A stretch of 37,373 nt of DNA from an uncultured Oscillospiraceae bacterium (GTDB lineage Bacteria; Bacillota; Clostridia; Oscillospirales; Oscillospiraceae). The stretch spans positions 1 to 37,373 of the forward strand of contig CAKTNP010000018.1 in assembly GCA_934589155.1 (NCBI GenBank), given 5' to 3'. The notes under the pieces are model-generated. The model was not told the DNA's origin, ran no database searches, and saw only the letters and a list, made by a program, of their open reading frames with translations. Made by a program: the position numbers and the translations under genes. Of this stretch, positions 3,262-37,373 are shown piece by piece; the stretch's first letter is position 1, and every line of letters starts with the position of its first letter.

Positions 3262-4018
3262 GCTGCGGAATATCCAAAAAACCTACAATCCTGGCACCGA
3301 CAGCGAGACAAAGGTATTTGAGGACTTCTCCCTGTCCGTGGAAAAGGGACAGTTCGTCTCCATTGTGGGCGGCAACGGCTCCGGAAAGACCACCCTTCTG
3401 AACATCATCTGCGGCTCCGTTCCCATCGACGGAGGAGAGGTCCGGGTGGCCGGGAAGAGCATCGAGAAAATGCCGGACTACAAGCGGTATCTCACCATGG
3501 GCCGGGTATATCAAAACCCGTCCCTCGGGACTTGCCCTAGCCTGACCATGCTGGAGAATCTTTCCCTGGCAGATCACAAGGGCCGGCACTTCGGCCTGAC
3601 CCGGGGCGTCAACAAAGGCCGGGTGGATTTTTACCGGCAGGAATTGGCGGCCCTGGGTCTGGGGCTGGAAAACAAGCTGGATGTGAAAATGGGCAGCCTG
3701 TCCGGAGGCCAGCGACAGGCGGTGGCTCTGCTCATGGCCACTATGACGCCTCTGGAATTTCTGATTCTGGACGAGCATACCGCAGCCCTGGATCCCAAAA
3801 CGGCGGAAACCATTATGGAGCTGACAGGAAGGATCATCCGGGAAAAGAGGCTCACGGCCATGATGGTGACTCACAACCTGCGCTATGCCCTGGAGTATGG
3901 GGATCGGCTGCTCATGATGAACCGGGGGAAGGCGGTGCTGGATAAGGCCGGGGCGGAGAAGCAGCGGCTTTCCACGGAGGAAATATTGGAGGTATTCAAC
4001 CGGATCTCCATGGAATAA
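3254..4018 (+). CDS. trpZ: ABC transporter ATP-binding protein (TrpZ-like)
   Basis: This 254-residue single-domain ATPase should energise the tryptophan importer from the cytoplasmic side. Walker A is GGNGSGKTT (about residues 37-45), the signature is LSGGQRQA, and Walker B ends in LILDEHTAALDP. The family norm is DEPTA, so the proline after the catalytic Glu is replaced by His, a change also seen in this branch of ATPases (from memory, not checked). A switch His is visible in MMVTHN. ATG 3254 overlaps the permease stop. The gene is last in the T-box operon and is followed within ten bases by a strong terminator. Confidence 0.88.
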   Translation: MLELRNIQKTYNPGTDSETKVFEDFSLSVEKGQFVSIVGGNGSGKTTLLNIICGSVPIDGGEVRVAGKSIEKMPDYKRYLTMGRVYQNPSLGTCPSLTMLENLSLADHKGRHFGLTRGVNKGRVDFYRQELAALGLGLENKLDVKMGSLSGGQRQAVALLMATMTPLEFLILDEHTAALDPKTAETIMELTGRIIREKRLTAMMVTHNLRYALEYGDRLLMMNRGKAVLDKAGAEKQRLSTEEILEVFNRISME

Positions 4019-4026
4019 GAGAAGGG

Positions 4027-4062
4027 AAAAGGTCCCGCAGGCGAAAGCCTGCGGGACCTTTT
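4027..4062. terminator. bidirectional terminator between trpZ and the AraR-type repressor
   Basis: A perfect 16-bp stem AAAAGGTCCCGCAGGC with its complement and a GAAA tetraloop ends in TTTT on each strand. It serves trpZ on the plus strand and the convergent repressor gene on the minus strand. The same GGTCCCGCAG stem is reused at 15165-15198. Confidence 0.93.
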
Positions 4063-4093
4063 CCGTTGGAGGGAGAGAAACAAGAACCAAAAA

Positions 4094-5170
4094 TCAAGAG
4101 GTTTCTTTTTCGATGATCTTCCAGGGGATGACCTGGGATTCACAGCGCTGGCCCGCCATGATCTTCAAAAGAAGACGGGCGGCCAGTTCACCGGTGTTGG
4201 TATTTTCATGGGACAGAGAGGTGATACGCAATAGGGCGGAATCGCTGTAGTGGCTGTTGTCAAAGCTGACGATGGCCACGGCGTCGGGGATCTGGATCCC
4301 CTTCCGCAGCAGGGTGCGGACCAGCAGATTCGCCACTTCGTCGTTGTAGCAGACCACGGCGCTGCAGCCCTCTATGACGCGGAGCATCTGCTGAATGGGG
4401 TATTCCGTGTCCAGATTGGGCTTGGTCTCCGTGGAGTACCAGTAGACGTGGCTGTCGTTGATGGGGAGCTGGTTCTTTAAAAGGGCGGCAATATAGCCGG
4501 AGTAGCGCTGGATACCCTGCAGGTCGTCGGATTTGAAGATTCCGGCGATCTGCCGGTGGCCCTTCTGGACCAGATATTCCACCAGTTGATAGCCACCGCC
4601 GTAATTGTCGTCCAGCACATAGCACACGTCGGGAAAATCCGTGTAGTAGCCATTGAGGAAAACAATGGGGACCTTCTTACTGCGGAGCTGCTCATACAGG
4701 AACAGGTTGGGGTTGGGCAGGGCGGTCTTGGTGCCCTCCACGATGAGACCGTCCAGGGAGGGCAGGGTCAGAAGGGTCTGAAGGATCCGGCGCTCAACGG
4801 CGACCTGGTTATTGGTGGCGTAGAGCAGAATGGAGCAGTCGTTGGCGGCCAGCTGAGCCTCGGCTCCCCGCAGGATGCTGGGGAAAATGTAGTCGCTGAT
4901 ATAGGTGGTGATGATGGCTACGGTGCGGTGGCCCTCTGCCGGGACGCCGGAGACGGAAGACTGGGACAGGACCCGGGAGCCGCTGCCTTGGCGCCTGGAG
5001 ATGAGCCCGGCCTGCTCCAGGCAGGACAGAGCCTTGCGGATGGTCTGGCGGCTCACGTCATACTCCAGGCACAGCTCGCTTTCCGTGGGAAGCATGGTGG
5101 CGGGAGGGTAGATTCCCTCGGAGATCTTGTGCTCCAGGGCGTCTGCGATTTGTTGGTATTTCAAAGACAT
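4094..5170 (-). CDS. araR: AraR-type repressor: GntR winged helix fused to LacI-type sugar-sensor domain
   Basis: The 358-residue protein starts MSLKYQQIADALEHKISEG, a GntR-family winged helix (about residues 1-75, with PTESELCLEYDVSRQTIRKAL). It continues into a LacI/periplasmic-binding-like sensor (about 88-355, starting TVAIITTYISDYIFPSILRG). This GntR-LacI fusion is the architecture of Bacillus AraR, the arabinose-responsive repressor. The start is ATG at 5170, six bases after AGGAGG; a longer frame to 5236 has no such site. It lies divergent from the arabinose transport operon, and its own promoter overlaps a palindrome built on ACAAAT, the motif that also flanks the divergent promoter. 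Repression relieved by L-arabinose is inferred from architecture and neighbours. Confidence 0.87.
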   Translation of the reverse strand: MSLKYQQIADALEHKISEGIYPPATMLPTESELCLEYDVSRQTIRKALSCLEQAGLISRRQGSGSRVLSQSSVSGVPAEGHRTVAIITTYISDYIFPSILRGAEAQLAANDCSILLYATNNQVAVERRILQTLLTLPSLDGLIVEGTKTALPNPNLFLYEQLRSKKVPIVFLNGYYTDFPDVCYVLDDNYGGGYQLVEYLVQKGHRQIAGIFKSDDLQGIQRYSGYIAALLKNQLPINDSHVYWYSTETKPNLDTEYPIQQMLRVIEGCSAVVCYNDEVANLLVRTLLRKGIQIPDAVAIVSFDNSHYSDSALLRITSLSHENTNTGELAARLLLKIMAGQRCESQVIPWKIIEKETS

Positions 5171-11421: not shown

Positions 11422-11461
11422 ATTCCCATATTTCTAGTCCCTGTTGAAAGGAGAACAATAT

Positions 11462-12931
11462 ATGAACCTGCCTGAAGTAAAACTGGCCCTGGTGGCCGTG
11501 TCCCGGGACTGTTTCCCCATTGCCCTGTCCATCACCCGGCGGAAGAACCTGGTGGAGGCCTACGGCCCCGGCCTGTATGAATGCCCCGTCACCGTGGAAA
11601 ATGAGGCTGACGCCTTGAAGGCGGTGTCGGACGTGGAGGCTGCGGGCTGCAACGCCTTGGTAGTTTTCCTGGGCAACTTTGGCCCCGAGACCCCCGAGAC
11701 TCTGCTGGCCCAGAAGTTCCATGGCCCTGTTATGTACGTGGCCGCCGCCGAGGGCGACGGAGATATGATCAACGGTCGGGGCGATGCCTACTGCGGCATG
11801 CTGAACTGCTCCTATAACCTGGGCATGCGGGGGCTGCGGGCCTATATCCCCGAATACCCCGTGGGCACCGCCCAGGAGTGCGCCGACATGATCCGGAAAT
11901 TCGTCCCCATTGCCCGGGCTATTATCGGCGTACAGAACCTGAAGCTCATCACCTTCGGCCCCCGGCCCCAGGACTTCTTTGCCTGCAACGCCCCTATTAA
12001 GGGCCTGTATGAGCTGGGGGTGGAGATCGAGGAGAACTCAGAACTGGATCTGCTGGTCAGCTTCCAGGCCCACAAGGGCGATGCCCGGATCCCTGAGGTC
12101 ATGGCAGATATGCAGCGGGAAATGGGCGGCAAGGTCTACACGGACCTTTTGGAGCGAATGGCCCAGTTCGAGCTGACCCTTCTGGATTGGGCAGAGACCC
12201 ACAAGGGCGCCCGGAAGTATGTGGCCTTTGCCGACAAGTGCTGGCCTGCCTTCCCGGAGCAGTTCGGCTTTGAGCCCTGCTTCGTCAACTCCCGGCTGGC
12301 AGCCCGGGGGATCCCCGTGGCCTGCGAGGTGGATATTTACGGCGCCCTCAGCGAGTACATCGGTGCCTGCATCACCGGCGATGCCGTGACCCTGCTGGAC
12401 ATCAACAACTCTGTGCCCAAGTATATTTACGATGAGGACATCACCGGTAAATTTGATTATAAGCTCACCGATACCTTCATGGGCTTTCATTGCGGCAACA
12501 CTCCTTCCTGTAAACTCTGCGACGGCTGCGGCGTGAAATACCAGCTGATCCAGCACCGGCTGCTGGAGCCCGCCGGAAGCGAACCCGATTTCACCAGGGG
12601 CACTCTGGAGGGCGACATTGCCCCCGGTGATGTGACCTTCTATCGGCTCCAGTGTGACAGCAACGGCGATCTACGGGCCTATGTGGCCCAGGGCGAGGTC
12701 CTGCCTGTGGCTACCCGGTCTTTCGGCGGCATCGGTATCTTCGCCATTCCCGAAATGGGCCGGTTCTACCGTCACGTACTGATCCAGAAGCGGTATCCCC
12801 ACCACGGCGCCGTGGCCTTTGCCCACTGCGGTCAGGCCCTCTTCGAGGTCCTGAAGTACCTGGGCGTGAAGGACATTGCCTACAATCAGCCCAAATCCCT
12901 GCCCTACGCCACGGAGAATCCTTGGGGGTAA
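11462..12931 (+). CDS. L-fucose-isomerase-fold sugar isomerase, paralogue A (predicted L-arabinose isomerase)
   Basis: The 489-residue protein belongs to the L-fucose/L-arabinose isomerase family but is not a classical AraA. Likely metal ligands are Glu289 in ACEVDIYG, Asp313 in LLDINNS and a His at 447/448 in PHHGAVAFAH. The 24-residue Glu-to-Asp spacing equals that of E. coli FucI (Glu337, Asp361, from memory). It should convert an aldose to the 2-ketose in the cytoplasm. Next to a ribulokinase-like FGGY kinase and AraD, the expected reaction is L-arabinose to L-ribulose (inference). ATG 11462 follows AAAGGAG by seven bases. A close paralogue lies at 25823-27301. L-fucose or D-arabinose are alternative substrates, but then AraD would be hard to explain. 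Confidence 0.8.
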   Translation: MNLPEVKLALVAVSRDCFPIALSITRRKNLVEAYGPGLYECPVTVENEADALKAVSDVEAAGCNALVVFLGNFGPETPETLLAQKFHGPVMYVAAAEGDGDMINGRGDAYCGMLNCSYNLGMRGLRAYIPEYPVGTAQECADMIRKFVPIARAIIGVQNLKLITFGPRPQDFFACNAPIKGLYELGVEIEENSELDLLVSFQAHKGDARIPEVMADMQREMGGKVYTDLLERMAQFELTLLDWAETHKGARKYVAFADKCWPAFPEQFGFEPCFVNSRLAARGIPVACEVDIYGALSEYIGACITGDAVTLLDINNSVPKYIYDEDITGKFDYKLTDTFMGFHCGNTPSCKLCDGCGVKYQLIQHRLLEPAGSEPDFTRGTLEGDIAPGDVTFYRLQCDSNGDLRAYVAQGEVLPVATRSFGGIGIFAIPEMGRFYRHVLIQKRYPHHGAVAFAHCGQALFEVLKYLGVKDIAYNQPKSLPYATENPWG

Positions 12932-25822: not shown

Positions 25823-27301
25823 ATGATGCAGAATATTCCTGATGTAAAGCTTGGCATGATCGCCGTATCCCGGGACTGCTTCCCCATTACCCTGTCCGCC
25901 ACCCGGCGGGACGCCATTGCGGCGGCCTATGGGCAGGATCTATACTGCTGCAAGATCACGGTAGAAAATGAGCTGGACGCCGAAAAGGCCCTGGCGGACG
26001 TAAAGGCGGCGGGCTGCAACGCCCTGGTGGTGTTCCTGGGCAACTTCGGCCCCGAGACCCCAGAGACCCTGCTGGCCCAGAAGTTCCATGGCCCTGTTAT
26101 GTACGTGGCCGCCGCCGAGGGCGACGGAGACATGATCAACGGCCGGGGCGACGCCTTCTGCGGCGTGCTGAACTGCTCCTATAACCTGGGTATGCGCCAC
26201 GTCAACGCCTATCTGCCGGAGTACCCCGTGGGCACCGCCCAGGAGTGCGCCGACATGATCCGGCAGTTCGTACCCATTGCCCGGGCGGTCATCGGCGTTC
26301 AGAATCTGAAGATCATCACCTTCGGCCCCCGGCCTCAGGACTTCTTTGCCTGCAACGCTCCTATTAAGGGCCTGTATGAGCTGGGCGTAGAGGTGGAGGA
26401 GAACTCCGAGCTGGATCTTCTGGTTTCCTACAAGGCCCACGCCGGCGACAGCCGGATCGAGGCCGTGTGCCAGGATATGGCCCAGGAGCTCGGCATGTCC
26501 GGCAACCAGTATCCGGAGCTGCTGCCCCGGATGGCCCAGTTCGAGCTGACCCTCCTGGATTGGGCGGAGACCCACAAGGGCGCCCGGAAGTATGTGGCCT
26601 TCGCCGACAAGTGCTGGCCCGCCTTCCCCGAGCAGTTCGGCTTTGAGCCCTGCTATGTGAATTCCCGCCTGGCCTCCCGGGGCATCCCCGTGGGCTGCGA
26701 GGTGGACATTTACGGCGCCCTCAGCGAGTACATCGGCACCTGCATCACCGGTGACGCCGTGACCCTGCTGGATATCAACAACTCCGTGCCTAAGTACATT
26801 TACGACGAGGACATCGCCGGAAAGTTCGATTATAAGCTCACCGATACCTTCATGGGCTTCCACTGCGGCAACACCCCCGCCTGTAAGATGTGCGCGGATC
26901 GGGCCGTGAAGTACCAGCTGATCCAGAACCGGCTTTTGGAGAACGGCGGCACGCCGGACTTCACCAGAGGCACTCTGGAGGGCGACATTGCCGCCTCGCC
27001 CGTGACCTTCTACCGGCTCCAGTGCGACAGCAACGGCGATCTGCGGGCCTATGTTGCCCAGGGCGAGGTCCTGCCGGTGGCCACCCGGTCCTTCGGTGGC
27101 ATCGGTATCTTCGCCATTCCCGAAATGGGCCGCTTCTACCGCCATGTGCTGATTCAGAAGCGATACCCCCACCACGGCGCTGTGGCCTTTGCCCACTGCG
27201 GCCGGGAGATCTTCGAGGTCCTCAAGTATCTGGGCGTGAAGGACATTGCCTACAACCAGCCCAAGTCCCTGCCCTACGCTACGGAGAATCCCTTCCTGTA
27301 A
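25823..27301 (+). CDS. L-fucose-isomerase-fold sugar isomerase, paralogue B (predicted D-xylose isomerase)
   Basis: The 492-residue protein is a close paralogue of 11462-12931, nearly identical over long stretches (for example the CWPAFPEQFGFEPC region and most of the last 100 residues). The presumed metal ligands are conserved: Glu293 and Asp317, again 24 apart, and the PHHGAVAFAH His pair. The main differences are the N-terminal third, the region near residues 210-240 (SYKAHAGDSRIEAV...), and a CKMCADRAVKY segment replacing CKLCDGCGVKY. Being in an operon with alpha-xylosidase and xylulokinase, with no XylA in the window, it is predicted to make D-xylulose from D-xylose. That reaction is not established for this branch as far as I know. 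ATG 25823 or 25826 is the start; only AGAAGGG precedes it. Confidence 0.78.
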   Translation: MMQNIPDVKLGMIAVSRDCFPITLSATRRDAIAAAYGQDLYCCKITVENELDAEKALADVKAAGCNALVVFLGNFGPETPETLLAQKFHGPVMYVAAAEGDGDMINGRGDAFCGVLNCSYNLGMRHVNAYLPEYPVGTAQECADMIRQFVPIARAVIGVQNLKIITFGPRPQDFFACNAPIKGLYELGVEVEENSELDLLVSYKAHAGDSRIEAVCQDMAQELGMSGNQYPELLPRMAQFELTLLDWAETHKGARKYVAFADKCWPAFPEQFGFEPCYVNSRLASRGIPVGCEVDIYGALSEYIGTCITGDAVTLLDINNSVPKYIYDEDIAGKFDYKLTDTFMGFHCGNTPACKMCADRAVKYQLIQNRLLENGGTPDFTRGTLEGDIAASPVTFYRLQCDSNGDLRAYVAQGEVLPVATRSFGGIGIFAIPEMGRFYRHVLIQKRYPHHGAVAFAHCGREIFEVLKYLGVKDIAYNQPKSLPYATENPFL

Positions 27302-27558
27302 TCTCGTTTGTTTCACTCCATTTTTTATCTTTCCGTTCCCATCCAATGTCTGAGGGCCGCCGGTCTCCCGGCGGCCCTCAGACGTCCGGAGACCGCCGGA
27401 CCGCTAAAATATCCTTCGTCATCGGGCCCTCCGACAGTGGCAAGAGTTCCATTCCCCGGTTCTGGAACGCATGGGAACAACATCAGGTTGGGCCGCCCGG
27501 CCTTTGCGGGCGGCAAAAGGAAACCGTGGATTGGAAGCAGTAAGGGCCGAAATCCCTC
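27302..27558. other. hairpin-rich intergenic region after the xylose operon
   Basis: No gene is supported. A perfect 16-bp inverted repeat starts GTCTGAGGGCCGCCGG (27348-27363, 27368-27383, 4-base loop). Downstream GGAGACCGCCGG could compete by pairing with its loop side. A second hairpin GCCGCCCG/CGGGCGGC lies at 27492-27514. Neither has a T tract on either strand, so the operon end may rely on Rho or RNA processing. Confidence 0.6.
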
Positions 27559-27587
27559 TTGAAAAGCGGGGGAAACTCTGCTATACT
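27559..27587 (+). promoter_or_regulatory. promoter of the riboswitch-controlled surface-protein gene
   Basis: TTGAAA (27559-27564), a 17-base spacer and TATACT (27582-27587). The predicted start near 27594 lies 17 bases before the riboswitch closing stem. Confidence 0.8.
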
Positions 27588-27610
27588 GGACCCAGAAAAA
27601 GGAATATAGG

Positions 27611-27723
27611 ATCGTGCGGCCTGCTTTGGGGAACCGGGGCGGGCGGAATGGGGTGAAAAGCCCCGCGAGTGGGTCACTGTGATGCCGGAGCTGCCGGATA
27701 AGTCAGACACGTCGGCCGCCGAT
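27611..27723 (+). promoter_or_regulatory. cobalamin riboswitch
   Basis: The conserved cobalamin-aptamer core is recognisable. GGAATGGGGTGAAAAGCCCC (27645-27664) matches the GGGAA...GGTG.AA..CC element. It is followed by GTCACTGTGATG, then GGAGCTGCCGGATAAG and the B12-box-like AGTCAGACACGTCGGCC (27701-27717). The element is closed by ATCG-GCGGCC (27611-27621, one bulge) pairing with GGCCGCCGAT (27714-27723). A hairpin GCCTGC/GCGGGC lies near the 5' side. The B12 box departs from the commonest form, so this may be a variant class. An intrinsic terminator 47 bases downstream suggests transcriptional control, with ligand expected to favour termination. Confidence 0.82.
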
Positions 27724-27769
27724 TCGGCACCTGCCGTCACCGGGACCGCCGCTCTGTTTTAGGGATATG

Positions 27770-27808
27770 TGGGCCTGTACCGCCGGGGCGGTGCAGGCCC
27801 ATTTTTTT
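27770..27808 (+). terminator. riboswitch expression-platform terminator
   Basis: A 14-bp stem (TGGGCCTG...CAGGCCCA with inner ACCGC/GCGGT and one U-G pair) is followed by seven T (27802-27808). It lies between the cobalamin aptamer and the surface-protein gene, the usual place for a transcription-terminating platform. Confidence 0.9.
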
Positions 27809-27846
27809 GGGACCCCGGGGTCCCATGCTTTGCACCGCAAAGCATG
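27809..27846 (+). other. perfect 16-bp palindrome abutting a 10-bp hairpin
   Basis: Directly after the terminator T tract lie a perfect palindrome GGGACCCCGGGGTCCC (27809-27824) and an inverted repeat CATGCTTTGC/GCAAAGCATG (27824-27846, 3-base loop). They share one base. A zero-loop palindrome is more typical of a dimeric protein site than of an RNA hairpin. Role unknown. Confidence 0.7.
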
Positions 27847-27917
27847 ACAGAGCTGTGAAACCGTATTATCAGGCGAAAGCCTTGTAATAAATAACAATAA
27901 GGAGCAAAAACGAAACC

Positions 27918-30900
27918 ATGACAAAACGTATTTTTGCCCTGCTGCTGGCCCTGGTGCTGGTAGTAAGCCTGCTGCCTGTGGGGGCCTCTGCGGCGGCTCC
28001 GGCCTCCGGCGGCACGGGCACGGCAGCGGATCCCTATCTCATCACCTCAGCTCAGGATCTTAAGGGTTTCCGGGACCTGGTGAATGCTTCGGCGAACAAA
28101 AGCACGTCGGAGCTCTGCGCCAAGTTGACGGATGACATCGACTTGAGTACGGTGGGAAATTGGACTCCCATTGGAGCCTATTCTTCCTATTCAAGTTATG
28201 TGGCCTATGGCGGCACATTTGACGGAAACGGCCATACCATCAAGGGCCTTTCCATTGAAACGACTGCGGCATACCAGGCGCTGATCGGCTATGCCAAGGG
28301 CTGCACGGTGCTGGATCTGACGGTAGAGGGTACCGTGACCGTGACCGGAACCAGCAGCCCCTACGCCGCGGGCATTATTGGCAGCGGCAGCGATGTGACC
28401 CTGGAGCGCTGCACCAACCGGGTCAATGTGACAACCACCAAGAAGGGCTATGCCGGCGGTGTGGCGGCTTGCCTCAGTAAACCCAGCAGCGGCAACAACC
28501 GGGTGAACGGCTGCCGGAACGAGGGCAGGATCTCCGGCTGCGGAGACTATGTGGGCGGCATTGTGGCAAATGCCACCGGCGCGACGATCGAGGGCTGCCT
28601 CAACACCGGGGAAATCGTGGATAACGGAAAGCCTGGCTCCTACAACTATGGCGTGGGCGGCGTGGCAGGCAGCGTCAGCAGCACGACCCTGGAGCGCTGC
28701 GGCAATACGGGTGCTGTGACCAGCACCCTCAAGCGTACCGGCGGTGTGGTCGGCTCCCTGAGCGGTACCATGACGGCCTGCTTCAACTCCGGAAATATTA
28801 CAGGCATTTATGCGCTGGGCGGCGTAGTCGGCTCTGTGGCAAGCAAGGACAGCGAGATCACGGACTGCTACAACCTGGGTACTGTCACCGGCCAGGCGCC
28901 TACGGCGACTTTTTCTGATTCCGGTGCGAAGGGCATTGGCGGTGTGGTGGGGGATCCGTCCTCCGCTTCTGTCACCAATGTCACAGTGGAAAACTGCTAC
29001 AATGCGGGGGCTGTCACCAATCAGAATACGGATGCCACGGATATTACCATCGGCGGCGTGATCGGGTGCAGCGTCGGAAAGAATTACAAAGGCGAGCCGA
29101 CGGCCGAGCTGATCACGGCGAAGAACTGCTATTATTTGGCGGCCGAGGGACTGAACGGTGACGGATATAACGGTGCAGCAGCCGGTGTGACGGCCAAGAC
29201 CGATGACGAATTGAAGGCCTCCGGTATGGCGGCGCTGCTGGGCGTAAGCTATACCGATCAGGCGGGGAACTATCCCATCCTGGGCTGGCAGGATCCTAAT
29301 GCCAAGTACCCCGTGACCTTTGTGCTGAGTCCCGCAGCTACGGCGCTTACGGTAAGATCCGGAGAGGAAACGGTCCAACCCAGGGAATCCAATCTGTATT
29401 CCCTGGGGAACGGGACCTATACCTATGAGGTCTCCGCACCGGAGTATGAGACGGTCACGGGTTCCTTTACGGTGGCCTATTCCGGCGCCACCATCTCGGT
29501 GACCCTGGTGGAGAAACGGTATGACGTGGTCTTTACCCTGACGCCCGCCAATGCCACCCTGGTGGTAGATGGTCAGACGCCGTTGGCCGACGGCCGGACG
29601 TTCCAGCTGACCAAGTCCGACAATCCCTATACCTATCATGTTTCCGCCTTCGGCTATCAGGCCATGAAAGGCAGCTTCTCCGTCAGCGGGGCAGGGGACA
29701 ACCAGAACGTGACCCTGACGGCGCTGCCCACCTGGAAGGTCCGTTTCGGCGCCATTACGGCGGCGGATGGCGAGACCATTGCGCCGGTGATCCGGCTGAC
29801 CAGCACCGACTGGCCCCAGCAGAGGCTGGAGGCCGGGCAGGATGGCAGCTATGAGCTGCCGGATGGCAATTACACCTACACGATCTCCTGCCAGGGCTAT
29901 AAGACGATCCGGGGCAGCTTTACCGTAGCGGGGGTGGACCTGAATCTGCCCGGCGTGGAGCTGGAGGTCCAGACGGCCTGGGACGGCACCACGCTCACCG
30001 AACCCCAGAAGGATGAGGACGGCTACTACCGCATCGGTACGCCGGACGAACTGATGTGGTTCAATCAAAACGCCAAAATGACGGACAATGTGCGGCTGAC
30101 GGCGGACATTCGGATCAATGAGGACCTGTCCGCCGAGGACTCCAACCTGTTTGGCTGGAAGCCCATCGGCAGCAGCAGCGCGCGATATACCGGCACCTTT
30201 GACGGCGGTGGACATACCATTTCCGGACTGTACATTTTTGCCTCCGGCAATACGGACGCGTCCAAATATGTGGGCCTGATAGGCTATGGCGGAACGGGCA
30301 GCAAAATCCAAAACCTGACCATTTCCGACAGCCTGATCCATGCGGAAAGCACGGGAAACTACGGAAAATATGTGGGCGCGTTTGCGGGCGAGATCTTTGA
30401 CCTTGAAAACTGCCACACCACCGATACGGTCCAGGTCTATGGCATGCAGCATGTAGGCGGTCTGGCAGGCTATCTGGACGGCACGGCCTCCCGCTGCTCC
30501 AACCGGGCTTCCGTCACCGCAGAGAAGACCTATGTAGGCGGCCTGTTCGGCGATGTGTATTCCCAGTCCAGCACTGCCGTGGTGCAGAGCTATAACGCCG
30601 GCGCTGTTACGGGGACCAACCTGGTGGGCGGCCTGGCTGGAACGCTCTATAATGGCGGCACCATGGCGGATGTGTACAATACGGGCTCCGTCACCGCCAC
30701 CGGCGGGCTCGTTGGCGGCTTTGTCGGAGAGCTGCGTTATGGTTCTCTGAAAAATGCCTATCAGGCCGGAACGGTCTCCGGTACTACCGTTGGCAGCGTG
30801 GCCGGACAGCTGGATTTTAGCCGCGGACAGAAAAACCTGGACAATCTTTATGTCCGCAAGGATGGCTATAACGATGTCGGCAATCTGAACAATTGTACCG

Positions 30901-33900
30901 CCCCGGAGGGGAAGGCCCAGGAAAAGACCGAGGAGGAGCTGAAGGCTCTGGCATCCAGTCTGGGCGACAGCTTTGCGGAGGATACCACCGGCCTCAACGG
31001 CGGCTACCCAATCCTTGTGTGGCAGAAGTCCGGCTCCGATGAACCGGAGGACCCGGACGCTCCCGCCAGCGACCCCAGCCAATGGGACGGCAAGACCAAG
31101 ACCCAACCCACCCAGTCTGATGGCGTGTACCAGATCGGCACGGCAGCGGAGCTGAAGTGGTTTGCCGATGCGGTAAAAGGCGACGCGGCGATCCGGGGCG
31201 TTCTTACGGCGAATATCGACCTGAACAACCGAAATTGGACGCCTGTGGCAGGCTTTACCGGCTCTCTGGATGGCAAGGGCTTTGAGATCCGGAATTTCTA
31301 TTGTAAGAATCTTATGGGAGCGGCGGCTCTATTCCTGGACAACAGCGGCGAGATTCGGGACCTGACCCTGAGCGGCAAGGTGATCGGCGGCGACAATACC
31401 GCCATGCTGGTTTCCGCCAATCAGGGAACCATTACCGGTTGCACCATCAAGGGCAGCGTGGCAGGCGGCAACTACACCGCGGGCCTGGCTGCGGTAAATA
31501 CCGGGGCCATTACCGGCTGTACCAACGAGGCGGGGATTTCCGGTGCCCAATATGTGGGCGGCATCAGCGGCCAGAACAAGGGGACCAAGGACAGCGCCGC
31601 CCGGATCGAGTCCTGTGTGAACCTGGGTATGATCCAGGCTTCCGGCTTCATGGCCGGCGGCATTACGGGCGATAATGACGGCTACGGTGAAAGCTTTGAC
31701 CATGCCACTGTCAAGAACTGCGCTTCCTCCGGCCATGTGGTCAGTACGGCGGCGGTGATGCAGGCCTATGTGGGCGGTATCATTGGCCGGAACAACGGCG
31801 TGGGACAGAACCTTTATAATGAAGGCAACGTGGAAGCTGTGGGTGGCTGCGTCAGCGGTACCGTGGGCCGGACCCTGAGCAAGGCCACCTCCGACAATAC
31901 CTACAACACCGCGGATGTGACCGGCGGCGACTATGAGGACGACGGCTATCCCACCGATGACGCTGTCAGCACGGAAACGGAGCTGGCCCAGGCCAAACGG
32001 ACCATGGGACAGGTGCTGGACCGGCTGCCCCAGCGGGAGACCATTTCCGGCAGCCTTACCATGGAAGGCAAGGCAGCCGTGGAGGCCACCGTCCGTGCAA
32101 ATTATACCGGTGAGGAAACCGGACTTGTGTATGTCTGGTACCTCAGCTATGGGGAGGATGACCCGGCGGTCCTGGCGATTTCCGAGGACCCGGAGTATGT
32201 GATCCCGCTTAGCATGGCAGGCCGGAAGCTGTACGTCAAGGCGCTGTGCGCCGGAAGATCCGGTGTACTTCAGGCGGAAACGGGCAGGATTCAGGGCCTC
32301 ACCGGCGTACTGAAGATCCAGGGACCTGCTGTGATCGGCAGGACGCTGAAGGCGGAGTTTACCGCGTCGGATCCTGTGGAGGGCCTCCAGTACCAGTGGT
32401 ACCGGGACAAGGCGCTGATTTCCGGCGCAAACCAGGCCAGCTATACTGTGACCCAAGAGGATCTGGGCAAGAAGCTGACCCTTCGGGTCACCAGCAGTCA
32501 GATCCCCGGCTCCGTGGAGGCGGCCACGGCCGCAGTCATGACACAGGAGACTGCCGGAATGTGGGACCTGTCCCAGTGCCAGGAGCCTGCCTTGGTAGCC
32601 GGAATCTATCATATCACCACGGAACAGGAGCTGCATTGGTTCGCCAGTGAAATCAACGGCGGAAACACCGGAATCTCCGGCAAACTCGTCAATGACATCA
32701 CGCTGACCTCTGAAAACTGGTATCCCATTGGCCGGGGAGACCATGGCTTTGTCGGATCCTTTGACGGAAACGGAAAAACGATCTCCGGGCTGAAGCTGGT
32801 CTCGGATCAGAGCGAAACCGGCTTCTTCGGCCTGATTGCCGGCGGCGGGAAGGTCCAGAGCCTGACCGTGTCCGGCACCGTGACCGCTACCGGAGATGTT
32901 TCCCAGGCGGGCGGCATTGCCGGTGCCATGGCGGATGAAGAGAAGGCGGCGTCCATTACGGATTGCCATTTCTCCGGCTCCGTGACCGGAAATCTCCAGG
33001 TCGGCGGCATTGTCGGCTGTGTGGGCCTCCATAACAGAGTGGAAAAATGCAGCAATACCGCCCGGGTGACCGGTAAGCAGCAGGTCGGCGGCATAGCCGG
33101 CGCCAACTCCTATGGCAACCTCTACTACTGCTTCAATACCGGCACCGTAGGCGGTGAGGATGCCAAGTATGTAGGCGGCATTGTGGGCGAAAATCAGAAC
33201 TATGCGGAACTGGTGGGCTGCTACAACCGGGGCACCGTTACGGGCGCCGACTATGTGGGCGGCGTGGCCGGACAGATCTATGTGGCCTCTATGGCCCTGG
33301 GCTGCTATAACACGGCGGAGGTCAGCCTGACCATGCACTCCGGCGGCGCCGTGGGCAGCTTCGGCGGTGATGAGTATATTACCATCAAGACGGGCAGCTT
33401 CTTCCAGGGGCCGCTGTCCGAGGGCTATCAGCCCAACGGCGCAAAGGCACGGACTGCGGAGCAAATGACCGGCGGCTCCTTTGCCAAGGAACTGAATCAG
33501 GATGCCTATGTCCAGTGTTATCAGGAGGATACGGCGAAGATCAACGACGGCTACCCCGTTCTGACCTGGCAGCGTGCTACGGTGGCCCAGACCGAGGAGC
33601 GGATCGTTGCCATCGGTTCTGTGAGCCTGGACAGCGAGAGCCGGATCGCAGCGGCCCGGGCGGCATATGACTCCCTGACGGAGGCGGAAAAGGCACTGGT
33701 TTCCAATTACAATGTGCTGACGGATGCGGAGACCCTGTTGGCCCACCTGAAGGATTGCCAGAAGGGAGAGCACGTCTGCAAGTCCTGGACGATCATAGCC
33801 CAGTCCGGCTGTGAAACAGAAGGGTCCATGACGGCTGACTGCATTTACTGCGGCGAGGAGCAGACCCAGATTCTTCCTGCCCTGGGCCATGACTGGGACG

Positions 33901-35294
33901 AGGGCGTGGAGACCAAGGCCGCCACATGCACCGTGGAAGGTGAAATGACCTACACCTGCCGCCGGGAAGGCTGCGGCGCTACCCGGACCGAGGCCATCGC
34001 CAAGATCCCCCACACCTATGAGTCCGTGGTCACCAAGCCCACCTGCGAAGGCATCGGCTACACCACCTATACCTGCTCCGCCTGCGGCGACAGCTACGTG
34101 GACGACATCGTGGAGGCCCTGGGCCACAGCTATGAGGACGTAGTCACCGCTCCCACCTGCGATAAGATGGGCTATACCACCCACACCTGCAAGACCTGCG
34201 GCCTTGCCTATGTGGATACCTTCACCGATGCCCTGGATCACGACTTTGTCAAGACCGTGACCAAGGAGCCCACCTGCACCGAGGAAGGCGAGATGACCTT
34301 CACCTGCGCCCATGAGGGCTGCACTGAGACCTACACCCAGCCCATCCCCAAGACGGACCACGACCTGGAGGAGACCAAGGTGGAGGCCACCTGCGAGACC
34401 GCCGGTTACACCACCTACTCCTGCAAGAACTGCGATTACACCTACGTGGGCGAGATCGTCCAGCCCCTGGGCCACACTTGGGATGAGGGCCGGACCCTGC
34501 TGGCCGCCAACTGCATCCATGAGGGTATGGTGGAATACACCTGCACCGTCTGCGACGACACCAAGATCGAGACCCTGGAGATGACCGACCATGTCTGGGA
34601 CGAGGGCAAGGTCACCAAGGAGCCCACGGCCTATGCCGAGGGTGAAAAGACCTACACCTGCACCGTCTGCGGCGAGACTCGGACCGAGGCCATCGCCAAG
34701 CTGGGCACCTGCGACGGAGGCAAGACCTGCCCCAGTGCCAAATTCACCGACGTGAGCGCTTCCCAGTGGTATCATGAGGCCGTGGACTACGCCGTGGTGA
34801 ACGGTTTGTTTGCCGGTACCTCCGACACCACCTTTACCCCCAACGGTGAAATGACCCGCGGTATGCTGGTGACGGTGCTGTGGCGTATGGCGGGCAAGCC
34901 CGAGGCCAAGGCCGCCGCAGCATTCCGGGATGTGGATGCCGATCAGTACTACGCCGTGGCGGTGGCCTGGGCCAAAGAGAACGGCATTGTGGCCGGTACC
35001 TCCGACACCACCTTCAGCCCCAACGCCAAGATCACCCGTGAGCAGATGGCTTCCATCCTGTACCGCTACGCTAAGCTATGCGGCATGGATGTGACCACGA
35101 CTGCGGATCTGGCCTCCTTCCCGGATGCGGACAAGGTTTCCGCCTACGCCGGGGAGGCTCTGGCCTGGGCTGTGGAGAACGGCCTTGTCAGCGGCACCCT
35201 GAGGGGCGGAAAGGCTTACCTGGATCCCACCGGCAACGCCACCCGCGCCCAGGTTGCCTCCATCCTCATGCGCTACGCCAAGACCTTTGCCTAA
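27918..35294 (+). CDS. giant SLH-anchored surface protein with GLUG-like, PEGA-like, Ig-like and Cys-rich repeats
   Basis: The 2,458-residue secreted protein has a signal peptide (1-26, cut near GASA). Four GLUG-like beta-repeat blocks follow (about 30-460, 688-1038, 1056-1358, 1548-1886), each full of YVGGIVG...CYNTGTVTG units. Blocks 2 to 4 open with a WD...YxIxTxxEL-type lead-in. Three PEGA-like units lie at 465-685, two Ig-like domains (QWYRD...) at 1365-1543 and a helical FIVAR-like segment at 1890-1950. Eight repeats of about 40 residues with CxxC or CxxxxC pairs occupy 1951-2266, and three SLH domains 2273-2458. SLH domains bind cell-wall polymer, so the protein is displayed on the surface. 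A cobalamin riboswitch precedes it. AAGGAG lies 13 bases before ATG, a long spacing. Ligand or partner is unknown. Confidence 0.9.
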   Translation: MTKRIFALLLALVLVVSLLPVGASAAAPASGGTGTAADPYLITSAQDLKGFRDLVNASANKSTSELCAKLTDDIDLSTVGNWTPIGAYSSYSSYVAYGGTFDGNGHTIKGLSIETTAAYQALIGYAKGCTVLDLTVEGTVTVTGTSSPYAAGIIGSGSDVTLERCTNRVNVTTTKKGYAGGVAACLSKPSSGNNRVNGCRNEGRISGCGDYVGGIVANATGATIEGCLNTGEIVDNGKPGSYNYGVGGVAGSVSSTTLERCGNTGAVTSTLKRTGGVVGSLSGTMTACFNSGNITGIYALGGVVGSVASKDSEITDCYNLGTVTGQAPTATFSDSGAKGIGGVVGDPSSASVTNVTVENCYNAGAVTNQNTDATDITIGGVIGCSVGKNYKGEPTAELITAKNCYYLAAEGLNGDGYNGAAAGVTAKTDDELKASGMAALLGVSYTDQAGNYPILGWQDPNAKYPVTFVLSPAATALTVRSGEETVQPRESNLYSLGNGTYTYEVSAPEYETVTGSFTVAYSGATISVTLVEKRYDVVFTLTPANATLVVDGQTPLADGRTFQLTKSDNPYTYHVSAFGYQAMKGSFSVSGAGDNQNVTLTALPTWKVRFGAITAADGETIAPVIRLTSTDWPQQRLEAGQDGSYELPDGNYTYTISCQGYKTIRGSFTVAGVDLNLPGVELEVQTAWDGTTLTEPQKDEDGYYRIGTPDELMWFNQNAKMTDNVRLTADIRINEDLSAEDSNLFGWKPIGSSSARYTGTFDGGGHTISGLYIFASGNTDASKYVGLIGYGGTGSKIQNLTISDSLIHAESTGNYGKYVGAFAGEIFDLENCHTTDTVQVYGMQHVGGLAGYLDGTASRCSNRASVTAEKTYVGGLFGDVYSQSSTAVVQSYNAGAVTGTNLVGGLAGTLYNGGTMADVYNTGSVTATGGLVGGFVGELRYGSLKNAYQAGTVSGTTVGSVAGQLDFSRGQKNLDNLYVRKDGYNDVGNLNNCTAPEGKAQEKTEEELKALASSLGDSFAEDTTGLNGGYPILVWQKSGSDEPEDPDAPASDPSQWDGKTKTQPTQSDGVYQIGTAAELKWFADAVKGDAAIRGVLTANIDLNNRNWTPVAGFTGSLDGKGFEIRNFYCKNLMGAAALFLDNSGEIRDLTLSGKVIGGDNTAMLVSANQGTITGCTIKGSVAGGNYTAGLAAVNTGAITGCTNEAGISGAQYVGGISGQNKGTKDSAARIESCVNLGMIQASGFMAGGITGDNDGYGESFDHATVKNCASSGHVVSTAAVMQAYVGGIIGRNNGVGQNLYNEGNVEAVGGCVSGTVGRTLSKATSDNTYNTADVTGGDYEDDGYPTDDAVSTETELAQAKRTMGQVLDRLPQRETISGSLTMEGKAAVEATVRANYTGEETGLVYVWYLSYGEDDPAVLAISEDPEYVIPLSMAGRKLYVKALCAGRSGVLQAETGRIQGLTGVLKIQGPAVIGRTLKAEFTASDPVEGLQYQWYRDKALISGANQASYTVTQEDLGKKLTLRVTSSQIPGSVEAATAAVMTQETAGMWDLSQCQEPALVAGIYHITTEQELHWFASEINGGNTGISGKLVNDITLTSENWYPIGRGDHGFVGSFDGNGKTISGLKLVSDQSETGFFGLIAGGGKVQSLTVSGTVTATGDVSQAGGIAGAMADEEKAASITDCHFSGSVTGNLQVGGIVGCVGLHNRVEKCSNTARVTGKQQVGGIAGANSYGNLYYCFNTGTVGGEDAKYVGGIVGENQNYAELVGCYNRGTVTGADYVGGVAGQIYVASMALGCYNTAEVSLTMHSGGAVGSFGGDEYITIKTGSFFQGPLSEGYQPNGAKARTAEQMTGGSFAKELNQDAYVQCYQEDTAKINDGYPVLTWQRATVAQTEERIVAIGSVSLDSESRIAAARAAYDSLTEAEKALVSNYNVLTDAETLLAHLKDCQKGEHVCKSWTIIAQSGCETEGSMTADCIYCGEEQTQILPALGHDWDEGVETKAATCTVEGEMTYTCRREGCGATRTEAIAKIPHTYESVVTKPTCEGIGYTTYTCSACGDSYVDDIVEALGHSYEDVVTAPTCDKMGYTTHTCKTCGLAYVDTFTDALDHDFVKTVTKEPTCTEEGEMTFTCAHEGCTETYTQPIPKTDHDLEETKVEATCETAGYTTYSCKNCDYTYVGEIVQPLGHTWDEGRTLLAANCIHEGMVEYTCTVCDDTKIETLEMTDHVWDEGKVTKEPTAYAEGEKTYTCTVCGETRTEAIAKLGTCDGGKTCPSAKFTDVSASQWYHEAVDYAVVNGLFAGTSDTTFTPNGEMTRGMLVTVLWRMAGKPEAKAAAAFRDVDADQYYAVAVAWAKENGIVAGTSDTTFSPNAKITREQMASILYRYAKLCGMDVTTTADLASFPDADKVSAYAGEALAWAVENGLVSGTLRGGKAYLDPTGNATRAQVASILMRYAKTFA

Positions 35295-35780: not shown

Positions 35781-37373
35781 ATGAAGAAGAGGATTTTGAG
35801 CGTTCTCTTGGCCCTGTGCCTGGTGCTGTCTCTGGCACCCATGACGGCCCTTGCGGAGGACGCGCCGGGGGTCGCTGTCTGGGACGGCACCGTGGCCACG
35901 GCCTTTGCGGGAGGTGCCGGTACCGAAGAGGACCCCTATCAGATCGCCGACGGAGCCCAGCTGGCCTACCTGGCAAGCTCGGTGAATGGCGGCGAGACTT
36001 ATGAGGGGAAGAGCTTTGTCCTGACGGCGGACATCAACCTGAACGGTCTGCCCTGGACACCCATCGCAAATACCTTTGCCGCCGCCCTGCTGGGCGGCCC
36101 GGATTATCGCGTCTTTGCCGGTGATCTGGACGGCCGGGGACATACCGTTTCCAATGTGGCAATCGGGTCCGAGACCGCCCCGCTGGAATCCGATGTATTC
36201 GGCTTCTTCGGCGGGACGAAGGGAAAGATCAGTAACCTGAACCTGGACAACGTTTCGATCTACGGCCTGGTAAAAACGACGGACGGTTATGTGATCGGCC
36301 TGGCCGGAGGCCTGGCGGGCTCCGTCGGCGGCCCCGTTGAGAACTGCCATGTGTCGAATCTCACCATGAATATGGCCCTGCCGGACACCAACTATGCGGC
36401 CGCCTACTGGATCGGCGGCTTTGTGGGCGCCCTGGACGGGGAGCAGGTCATTACCGAGTGCAGCGTCTCCGGCAATATTGAGGAGCAGGCGGGCAAGGGC
36501 TCCATCGGCGGCTTCATCGGCGAACTGGGAGTAAAAGCCAAGATCTCCTACAGCAGAGCGGACGTGGCTCTGAATGTAAAGGCGGATGCTTACGGCGGCG
36601 CGGATGTCGGCGGCTTTATCGGTAAGGGCAACGGCAACAGCAACGCCGAGACCGTGATCCGGAACTGCTATGCCTCCGGCAAGGTCCAGGGCGGCGCCTA
36701 TTCGGGCGGCTTCACCGGCAGTATCTGGGGCCTGAACATCAAAAATTGCTATGCCGCCGGAGATGTGACTCAGGCCGCTGCTTCTATGGCCTCCTTTGCA
36801 GGCACGGACGGTCCCGCAGGGTATGCCTACGGCTCCATCATCAACTGCTATGCCTCCGGCGAAGTCATTGGGAAGGCCGCCTATCGGTATGCCTTCGCTA
36901 TGCAGGATGCCGCCAAGCGGAGCGAGATCACAAACTGCTATTTTGCGGATGTGAATTCGGAGATCAAGAATGAAAACGAGTCCGCAGAGGCCAAATCCCC
37001 GGATGAAATGAAGACGGGGGCCTTTGCGGCGGCCCTAAACGCCGAAGATGACGGCAACGGCTGGAGCTTTGCGGATGGGAAGGTCCTCTGCGGTGCCGAG
37101 CCGGCGGATTACGGTGCCGTAGAGGCGGCCCTGGCGGCTGTTCCCTCCGATCTAACCCCGTATTCCGATGAATCTCTTGCGGCCTTGAATGCGGCCCTGG
37201 ATGGCGTGATCCGGGGCAAGGCTGTCGTGCATCAGACCCAGGTGGACGCCATGGCAAAGGCCATCAAGGACGCCATCGCAGCCCTTGCTTACAAGTCTGC
37301 CGACTACACCCGGGTGGACGAGGCCATTGCCAAGGCCAATGCTTTGACGAAAGAGGACTATGAGGACTTCTCC
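35781..37373 (+). CDS. second secreted GLUG-repeat surface protein, 3' end beyond window
   Basis: The frame is open from ATG 35781 to the window end (531 codons). A signal peptide (MKKRILSVLLALCLVLSLAP, cut near TALA) is followed by the lead-in VAVWDGTVATAF...DPYQIADGAQLAYLASSVNGG, shared in form with the first surface protein. GLUG-like repeats (IGGFVG, VGGFIGKG, NCYASGKVQG) run to about residue 395. An alpha-helical FIVAR-like region with Lys/Ala-rich helices begins near residue 436 and continues off the end. ATG 35781 lies seven bases after GGGAGG. It is a paralogue-like neighbour of the 27918 gene with its own promoter. Anchor and C-terminal domains cannot be seen. Confidence 0.88.
   Translation, partial: MKKRILSVLLALCLVLSLAPMTALAEDAPGVAVWDGTVATAFAGGAGTEEDPYQIADGAQLAYLASSVNGGETYEGKSFVLTADINLNGLPWTPIANTFAAALLGGPDYRVFAGDLDGRGHTVSNVAIGSETAPLESDVFGFFGGTKGKISNLNLDNVSIYGLVKTTDGYVIGLAGGLAGSVGGPVENCHVSNLTMNMALPDTNYAAAYWIGGFVGALDGEQVITECSVSGNIEEQAGKGSIGGFIGELGVKAKISYSRADVALNVKADAYGGADVGGFIGKGNGNSNAETVIRNCYASGKVQGGAYSGGFTGSIWGLNIKNCYAAGDVTQAAASMASFAGTDGPAGYAYGSIINCYASGEVIGKAAYRYAFAMQDAAKRSEITNCYFADVNSEIKNENESAEAKSPDEMKTGAFAAALNAEDDGNGWSFADGKVLCGAEPADYGAVEAALAAVPSDLTPYSDESLAALNAALDGVIRGKAVVHQTQVDAMAKAIKDAIAALAYKSADYTRVDEAIAKANALTKEDYEDFS

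Follow-up and report, generated by a model that had tools for sequence, protein, structure and literature searches.

A predicted cobalamin-family riboswitch of a short-P7 subclass precedes a giant SLH-anchored surface protein in an Oscillospiraceae bacterium

To our knowledge, extracellular capture of corrinoids by Gram-positive gut bacteria has been little studied, unlike the BtuG system of Bacteroides. BtuG is a surface lipoprotein for B12 acquisition that is linked to btuB and stands under a B12 riboswitch, and the accessible part of the paper that describes it reports no homologs outside Bacteroidetes by its BlastP search (PMC6143338). Secreted Gram-positive proteins that combine an SLBB domain with an alpha/alpha toroid, and that also carry FIVAR and immunoglobulin (Ig) modules, were predicted in 2007 to be transcobalamin-like surface scavengers of B12; the terms riboswitch and SLH are absent from the text of that paper, in the portion available (PMC1796856). 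Here we analyse a 37,373-nt stretch of DNA (the window) from an uncultured Oscillospiraceae bacterium (contig CAKTNP010000018.1), in which a leader that we assign to the cobalamin-riboswitch family precedes the gene for a 2458-residue surface protein (Table 1).

The leader and its relatives have in common with RF00174 (and with RF01482 and RF01689) a conserved GGTGAAA...CACTGTGA...AAGTCAG core, paired core helices that covary, a terminator behind the aptamer and targets in the B12 pathway; unlike in RF00174, the stretch from CACTGTGA to AAGTCAG holds no more than a short P7 hairpin, and L5 and the B12-box loop are divergent. The protein, of SLH, GLUG and Ig-like composition, has a signal peptide (recognised by eye), GLUG motifs and three SLH domains (Pfam), and on its signal peptide and SLH domains we class it as an SLH-anchored surface protein. 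It resembles other SLH surface proteins with GLUG repeats, which likewise have a signal peptide and three C-terminal SLH domains, and differs from them in the B12-type riboswitch in front of its gene. With BtuG it would share a surface location, a part in B12 acquisition and control by a B12 riboswitch (PMC6143338), whereas it is an SLH-anchored protein of a Gram-positive bacterium and a putative binder, and its signal peptide is without the lipobox cysteine of a BtuG-type lipoprotein anchor. Domain kinds similar to those of the 2007 SLBB-toroid proteins occur in sibling targets of the same RNA family, whereas the window protein is without both binding domains (PMC1796856).

The sequence scan, the list of open reading frames (ORFs) and a new covariance model, R1, agree that a promoter, an aptamer and a terminator lie directly 5' of the SLH gene. 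This arrangement had been claimed in the original prediction, together with the absence of any intervening gene, and both claims hold: besides the SLH gene itself, there is no + strand ORF of at least 90 aa between 27543 and 27918. The promoter is the sole sigma-70-like match across 27300-27950 (mean of 0.2 in shuffles), and the terminator is the single terminator-like stem found in the same interval; stems of this kind are not rare by chance in that scan (mean of 1.1 in shuffles), yet a stem of 15 pairs is long.

The leader contains GGGTGAAAAGCCC, GTCACTGTGA and AAGTCAGA, recognised by eye, in an order that we take to be that of a cobalamin aptamer. A core pattern, GGTGAAA-N14-20-CACTGTGA-N13-22-AAGTCAG, matches the window once and none of 100 shuffles; it also matches at least 120 stretches of the genome collection and one viral contig. 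All family counts given below are samples, since they are drawn from the core-pattern matches listed, in at least 120 stretches. Among these, the letters before CACTGTGA label 58 sites as canonical and 63 as variant. The variant sites have GGAATnGGGTGAAAAGCCC.GCGAGTSGGTCACTGTGA and a short P7 hairpin in common and come mostly from Oscillospiraceae and other Clostridia, as judged from record titles; a stricter variant pattern had no match on viral contigs. Four were misassigned to the 63: L003, L016 and L070, which are apparent chance matches, and L115, which is canonical-looking and mislabelled. Removal of these four, of the duplicate L089 and of six loci of the GAGGCCGT/GAGGTCGT type left 52 variant leaders, from which R1 was built on a sequence-only MAFFT alignment that was then folded, with the window excluded. 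R1 nevertheless recovers a sole site in the window, at 27604-27758, with 106.9 bits and an E-value of 2.1e-25. The aptamer that had been placed at 27590-27740 is thus present, although its span is slightly longer than claimed. In 19 loci with a variant site, none of the 19 sites reaches any Rfam gathering score (31.5 bits for RF00174); the RF00174 matches in L024 and L064 fall elsewhere in those loci, and the variant sites in four short loci score a sub-threshold 24.9-27.6 bits with RF00174 or RF01482. On these sequence grounds we regard the leader as a member of a short-P7 subclass of the cobalamin-riboswitch family that is found in Oscillospiraceae and other Clostridia. The results suggest that Oscillospiraceae B12 regulons are undercounted when only the Rfam models are used at their thresholds.

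Several arrangements at other loci are recorded here. A second subset (L013, L050, L060, L078, L113 and L119), with GAGGCCGT or GAGGTCGT in L5, scores 40-50 bits with R1 and lies outside the model. Tandem pairs on the same strand occur in L213 (458-622 and 915-1072), L076 (485-640 and 789-934) and L208 (497-650 and 736-890, the second copy weak at 38.2 bits), and in L064 a canonical RF00174 riboswitch at 4003-4256 (-) lies near a variant at 4436-4586 (+), on opposite strands.

The predicted structure is borne out by comparison within the family. In the sequence-only alignment of 52 leaders, 10 of the 17 predicted pairs show compensatory changes on both sides. An enlarged set, obtained by searching 90 loci and the window with R1, holds 93 distinct sequences, in which 98.0% of cells pair (81.4% when shuffled) and both-side changes occur in 12 of the 17 pairs; the covariation score is 0.465 versus 0.143, with none of 500 shuffles as high and slid controls at 0.017-0.091, and it leans towards the R1 structure because this alignment was fitted to that structure. 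The closing helix P1 lies outside R1. Across the 93 sequences, the 5' and 3' strands of the same leader pair with a mean of -16.5 kcal/mol, compared with -11.6 kcal/mol when re-paired (standard deviation of 0.30); the window duplex reaches -22.5 kcal/mol, a value that the window 5' strand equals or betters with 4 of 92 3' strands from other leaders. Terminator-like stems follow within 220 nt of the aptamer in 78 of the 93 family members and in 2 of 93 mononucleotide shuffles. A cobalamin-type riboswitch before the SLH giant, as originally proposed, is therefore supported by R1, by covariation and by the P1 duplexes, not by RF00174, RF01482 or RF01689.

Table 1. Positions, in the window, of the leader elements, the surface-protein gene with its parts, and the neighbouring GLUG gene.
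Feature	Position	Strand	Basis
Sigma-70-type promoter, TTGAAA-17-TATACT, with TG before the second hexamer (TG-extended)	27559..27587	+	Sequence scan
Predicted cobalamin-riboswitch-family aptamer, short-P7 subclass missed by Rfam; core motif 27652-27706	27604..27758	+	Model R1, core pattern
Closing helix P1, 5' strand (pairs with 27714-27725)	27609..27621	+	Duplex energy
Closing helix P1, 3' strand	27714..27725	+	Duplex energy
Intrinsic terminator / expression platform: 15-pair stem 27769-27802, loop of 4, T run 27802-27808	27769..27808	+	
Gene for the 2458-aa surface protein, ATG at 27918 to stop	27918..35294	+	
GLUG beta-rich scaffold, about residues 27-1885, homologous to DUF4430-plus-toroid proteins	27996..33572	+	Profile comparisons, model
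Cys-rich repeats of about 38 aa, where relatives carry beta-grasp or toroid domains	33840..34700	+	
Three SLH domains (S-layer/secondary cell-wall polymer anchor), residues 2276-2447	34743..35258	+	Pfam
Second signal-peptide GLUG protein, cut by the window end; possible partner	35781..37373	+	

To describe the targets of the family, we took a census of the 93 distinct sites with home-made profiles, considering any same-strand ORF of at least 100 aa that starts within 3 kb, irrespective of operon, and counting tandem sites of one locus separately. Six sites have less than 700 nt downstream; 16 precede CbiK (fused to SLH in 6), 29 precede DUF4430 (with SLH also present in 14 and a toroid in 12), 3 precede SLH without DUF4430 (the window, L182 and L042) and 39 have none of CbiK, DUF4430 or SLH. 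The last group includes the Vescimonas sites L126 and L127, loci that end after 1500 nt, and L127 precedes a 2200-aa DUF4430 protein. Pfam searches at ten of these 39 sites returned CbiD twice, a tetrapyrrole methylase, CobS, CobT and three Peripla_BP_2 domains (BtuF-type binding proteins), with a histidine phosphatase and an ECF transporter at the remaining two. Pfam also confirmed SLH with DUF4430 at L076, L008, L085, L108, L187 and L197, SLH with CbiK at L061 and L018, and CbiK at L100, L105, L030 and L121. SLH, DUF4430, CbiK or toroid domains occur in the 3 kb downstream of 26 of 67 variant sites and upstream of 0 of 23, compared with 5 of 34 and 0 of 31 for canonical-looking leaders.

The fusion of CbiK, of the cobalt chelatase family, to SLH behind the riboswitch is seen with Pfam at L061 and L018 and with our own profiles at L213, L098 and L116; the fusions are predicted to be surface-anchored chelatase-like or tetrapyrrole-binding proteins. 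In the G007 family, 103 of 400 genomes hold DNA that matches the window leader region; in at least 4 of these the match is confined to the terminator part (query positions 209-246), so that no more than 99 match the aptamer. The closest of these leaders (78% over 158 nt) lies 5' of a 1780-aa DUF4430 protein. Vescimonas fastidiosa holds four riboswitch copies on one 861-kb record, one of which precedes the 2200-aa DUF4430 protein. In L128 (Vescimonas NZ_AP023416.1, 8-39.5 kb) and L002, three copies share a stretch of DNA with genes for conjugation and integrases, which suggests that surface-protein cassettes may move.

Many sibling targets look like surface corrinoid binders, a reading that draws on structure models. 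At L212, a small DUF4430-plus-toroid protein lies about 1.2 kb behind the riboswitch site, and full-length relatives of it exist. One of these, P0242 (99% identical), was modelled with a predicted local distance difference test score (pLDDT) of 92.5; the 15 top-ranked Foldseek hits of this model are without exception entries for transcobalamin, haptocorrin or intrinsic factor. The two-domain fold of P0242, toroid and beta domain, is thus that of a transcobalamin-like binder, and the beta domain alone matches that of human transcobalamin (5np4) with a TMt of 0.76 at 2.4 A. Comparison of sequence profiles with the PDB found squalene-hopene cyclases and not transcobalamin. The 2007 prediction of transcobalamin-like proteins in bacteria is reportedly the work of Burroughs et al. 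In the literature searched, DUF4430 and cobalamin occur together in just two papers, one on vertebrate carriers (PMC4350170) and one on a Lacticaseibacillus proteome, where the protein is called of unknown function (PMC9963975); the words surface, S-layer and DUF4430 do not occur in the available part of a survey of riboswitch regulons (PMC3766115). We recognised no publication that links cobalamin riboswitches to SLH proteins or to bacterial DUF4430 proteins, nor any that treats the subclass missed by Rfam or SLH genes as its targets, in a search mostly of abstracts that covered few subscription journals.

The window protein is tied to these siblings through its scaffold. Its best relative, P0002, is 92% identical over the full length, and the others of the 120 best align over some 77% of the query at roughly 55-60% identity. 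Our own profiles find SLH in 90 of the 120 best relatives, DUF4430 plus toroid in 16 and neither in 14; this census indicates that the scaffold of residues 1-1890 is common to them and that the C-terminus is exchanged. A DUF4430-like domain ('VYFSLS...GD') occurs in 103 of the 120 (98 by text pattern). Its profile matches that of DUF4430 weakly (probability of 45.5, P of 2e-4), with three controls at 0.1-0.4. From sequence, P0002 alone among the 120 appears to lack both the DUF4430-like domain and the DUF4430-toroid combination; the window protein, which has its Cys-rich repeats there, lacks both as well. Two genomes (G699 and G704) hold scaffold homologs with 47-49% identity, the translations of which end, by eye, in DUF4430-like, FIVAR-like and toroid parts. 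An RF00174 riboswitch that scores 88.5 bits lies 184 nt upstream of one of these two homologs.

Close genomic relatives of the window protein were searched for with P0001, P0018 or P0055 as queries. At strict E-values none was found in 300 genomes of the G140 family, in 391 of the class or in viral contigs, and 43 further genomes searched at E up to 1e-60 gave only C-terminal or SLH-side matches, in 3 genomes. G699 and G704 are the two with scaffold homologs among 394 genomes of one order, and the same two were found among 250 of the G699 family; G704 stands alone among 80 genomes of its genus, as does G699 among 3 of its own. A model of residues 27-700 (pLDDT of 79.5, from 4 sequences) is nearly all beta and can be read as a solenoid followed by sandwiches; structurally it comes closest, at low template modelling (TM) scores, to adhesins, pilins and a putative IgA1 protease.

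We consider it probable that the leader is a short-P7 cobalamin-family RNA through which B12 turns the SLH gene off, and that the protein serves as a scaffold, docking partner or adhesin of a corrinoid-scavenging surface. Repression of the SLH giant by B12 through termination is the most likely form of control by analogy with known systems. When corrinoid is plentiful, the RNA would bind it, the terminator stem would form and the gene would be off; under B12 starvation the terminator would be read through and the gene switched on. The analysis shows to which family the RNA belongs, the order of the genes, the terminator, the domains of the protein and the homology of its scaffold; both the ligand and the scavenging role are inferred, as is the off direction, which is usual for cobalamin riboswitches. 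A review of riboswitches in C. difficile describes the cobalamin type as off switches that belong to class I, with IIa and IIb as minor classes (PMC11477304). Once exported, the protein would be anchored to the wall through its SLH domains, and would belong to a B12-repressed surface set, many members of which have transcobalamin-like DUF4430/toroid modules or CbiK, often with a similar anchor. It keeps the shared GLUG scaffold and has Cys-rich repeats in place of the ligand-binding modules. Because its binding domains are replaced, whereas scaffold, anchor and control are common to the siblings, a part as scaffold, docking partner or adhesin is likelier than direct binding. The original prediction had made a surface protein turned off by B12 a candidate for extracellular corrinoid capture. 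For the regulon this is supported: the RNA precedes SLH, DUF4430 and toroid proteins, one sibling model is transcobalamin-like, and scaffold relatives carry those domains. For the window protein itself such a role would be conjectural: it has neither DUF4430 nor toroid up to E 1, and its scaffold matches adhesin- and pilin-like structures with low TM-scores.

Several results count against this interpretation. Rfam 15 at gathering thresholds finds no cobalamin riboswitch in the whole window, and a search of 27500-27950 up to E 10 gives no cobalamin match; the cmscan with RF00174, RF01482 and RF01689 that had been proposed as a check thus finds nothing in the leader. Complementarity for an L5-L13 kissing loop is present in 60 of 91 sequences (2 of the 93 are without the anchor), which is not above the shuffled mean of 58.7, L5 being too uniform in sequence for such a comparison, and an antiterminator pairing was sought in the leader and none was identified. 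SLH without DUF4430 is a minority target, found at just 2 other of the 87 assessable sites. In the window protein, neither DUF4430 nor an alpha/alpha toroid appears at E up to 1; our own profiles give 2.1 bits for DUF4430 and no toroid, and the DUF4430-like domain of the relatives was not found either. Genome context was seen only in relatives no closer than about 50% identity to the window protein, and the second scaffold homolog (L229) has an RF00174 match of only 22.4 bits, sub-threshold, 763 nt upstream. Over its whole length P0242 aligns with transcobalamin-type entries at TM-scores of 0.33-0.49 and about 22 A, probably owing to a different placement of the two domains, and for the toroid alone VIA-align ranks squalene-hopene cyclases first, with no transcobalamin in 50 rows.

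Further along the DNA, the part of the second GLUG protein that follows its GLUG motifs looks FIVAR-like by eye and has no Pfam hit; the long leader of its gene has no riboswitch by Rfam or R1. Upstream of the SLH gene is a sugar uptake region with GH127, GH31, an FGGY kinase and two genes with an L-fucose-isomerase C-terminal domain (11444-12931 and 25823-27301). A T-box leader (RF00230, 99.9 bits) at 912-1158 stands before ABC_sub_bind and permease genes starting at 1307, and a partial tRNA at 1-65 on the - strand, cut at the window edge, scores 46.4 bits with Rfam; ARAGORN reports none.

Other explanations have to be weighed. B12 starvation could drive a remodelling of the surface other than corrinoid capture, with the protein a glycan or host adhesin within the B12 regulon. 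The SLH/GLUG/Ig-like composition, the pilin and adhesin matches and the sugar uptake cluster with GH127, GH31 and fucose-isomerase-type genes would suit such a role, but the regulon of the RNA family is rich in B12 and cobalt genes and scaffold relatives carry DUF4430 plus toroid; we rate this account as unlikely, though worth keeping in view. Somewhat more doubtful is direct capture, in which the window protein itself would bind corrinoids via its GLUG scaffold or Cys-rich repeats, as a Gram-positive counterpart of BtuG. A B12 riboswitch stands in front of the gene and the scaffold is held in common with transcobalamin-like proteins; the modules expected to bind corrinoid are, however, missing from the protein, and the scaffold model points to adhesins, pilins and the putative IgA1 protease at low TM-scores.

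We give little credence to a third account, in which the ligand of the subclass would be, instead of cobalamin, some other corrinoid (a different cobamide or a cobinamide-type precursor) or a related tetrapyrrole. It would fit the divergent core (short P7, GCGAGTSGGTCACTGTGA), which stays below Rfam thresholds, and the many CbiK targets, whereas canonical-looking leaders also have GGTGAAA, CACTGTGA and AAGTCAG (as the pattern that found them requires) and the targets include CobS, CobT and BtuF-type genes. That the riboswitch has decayed and lost its control of the SLH gene is very improbable: the single-sequence fold of the window is only modestly stable (z of -1.99, with 8 of 200 shuffles equally good), its minimum-energy folds do not display the whole consensus core and Rfam gives no match, but the conserved core columns are intact, P1 is strong and promoter and terminator are preserved.

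A single RNA model thus leads to a defined group of surface proteins, in which modules like those of transcobalamin or intrinsic factor, SLH anchors and CbiK fused to SLH are found. It is conceivable, and we put it forward tentatively, that this Rfam-missed subclass of B12 riboswitches commands, in gut Clostridia, an S-layer-anchored surface for harvesting corrinoids, on which GLUG giants such as this one bind corrinoids directly or hand them over together with transcobalamin-like and SLH-CbiK partners. The RNA sensor and the surface-protein set together suggest a surface B12-scavenging system in a gut-type bacterium, which can now be tested.

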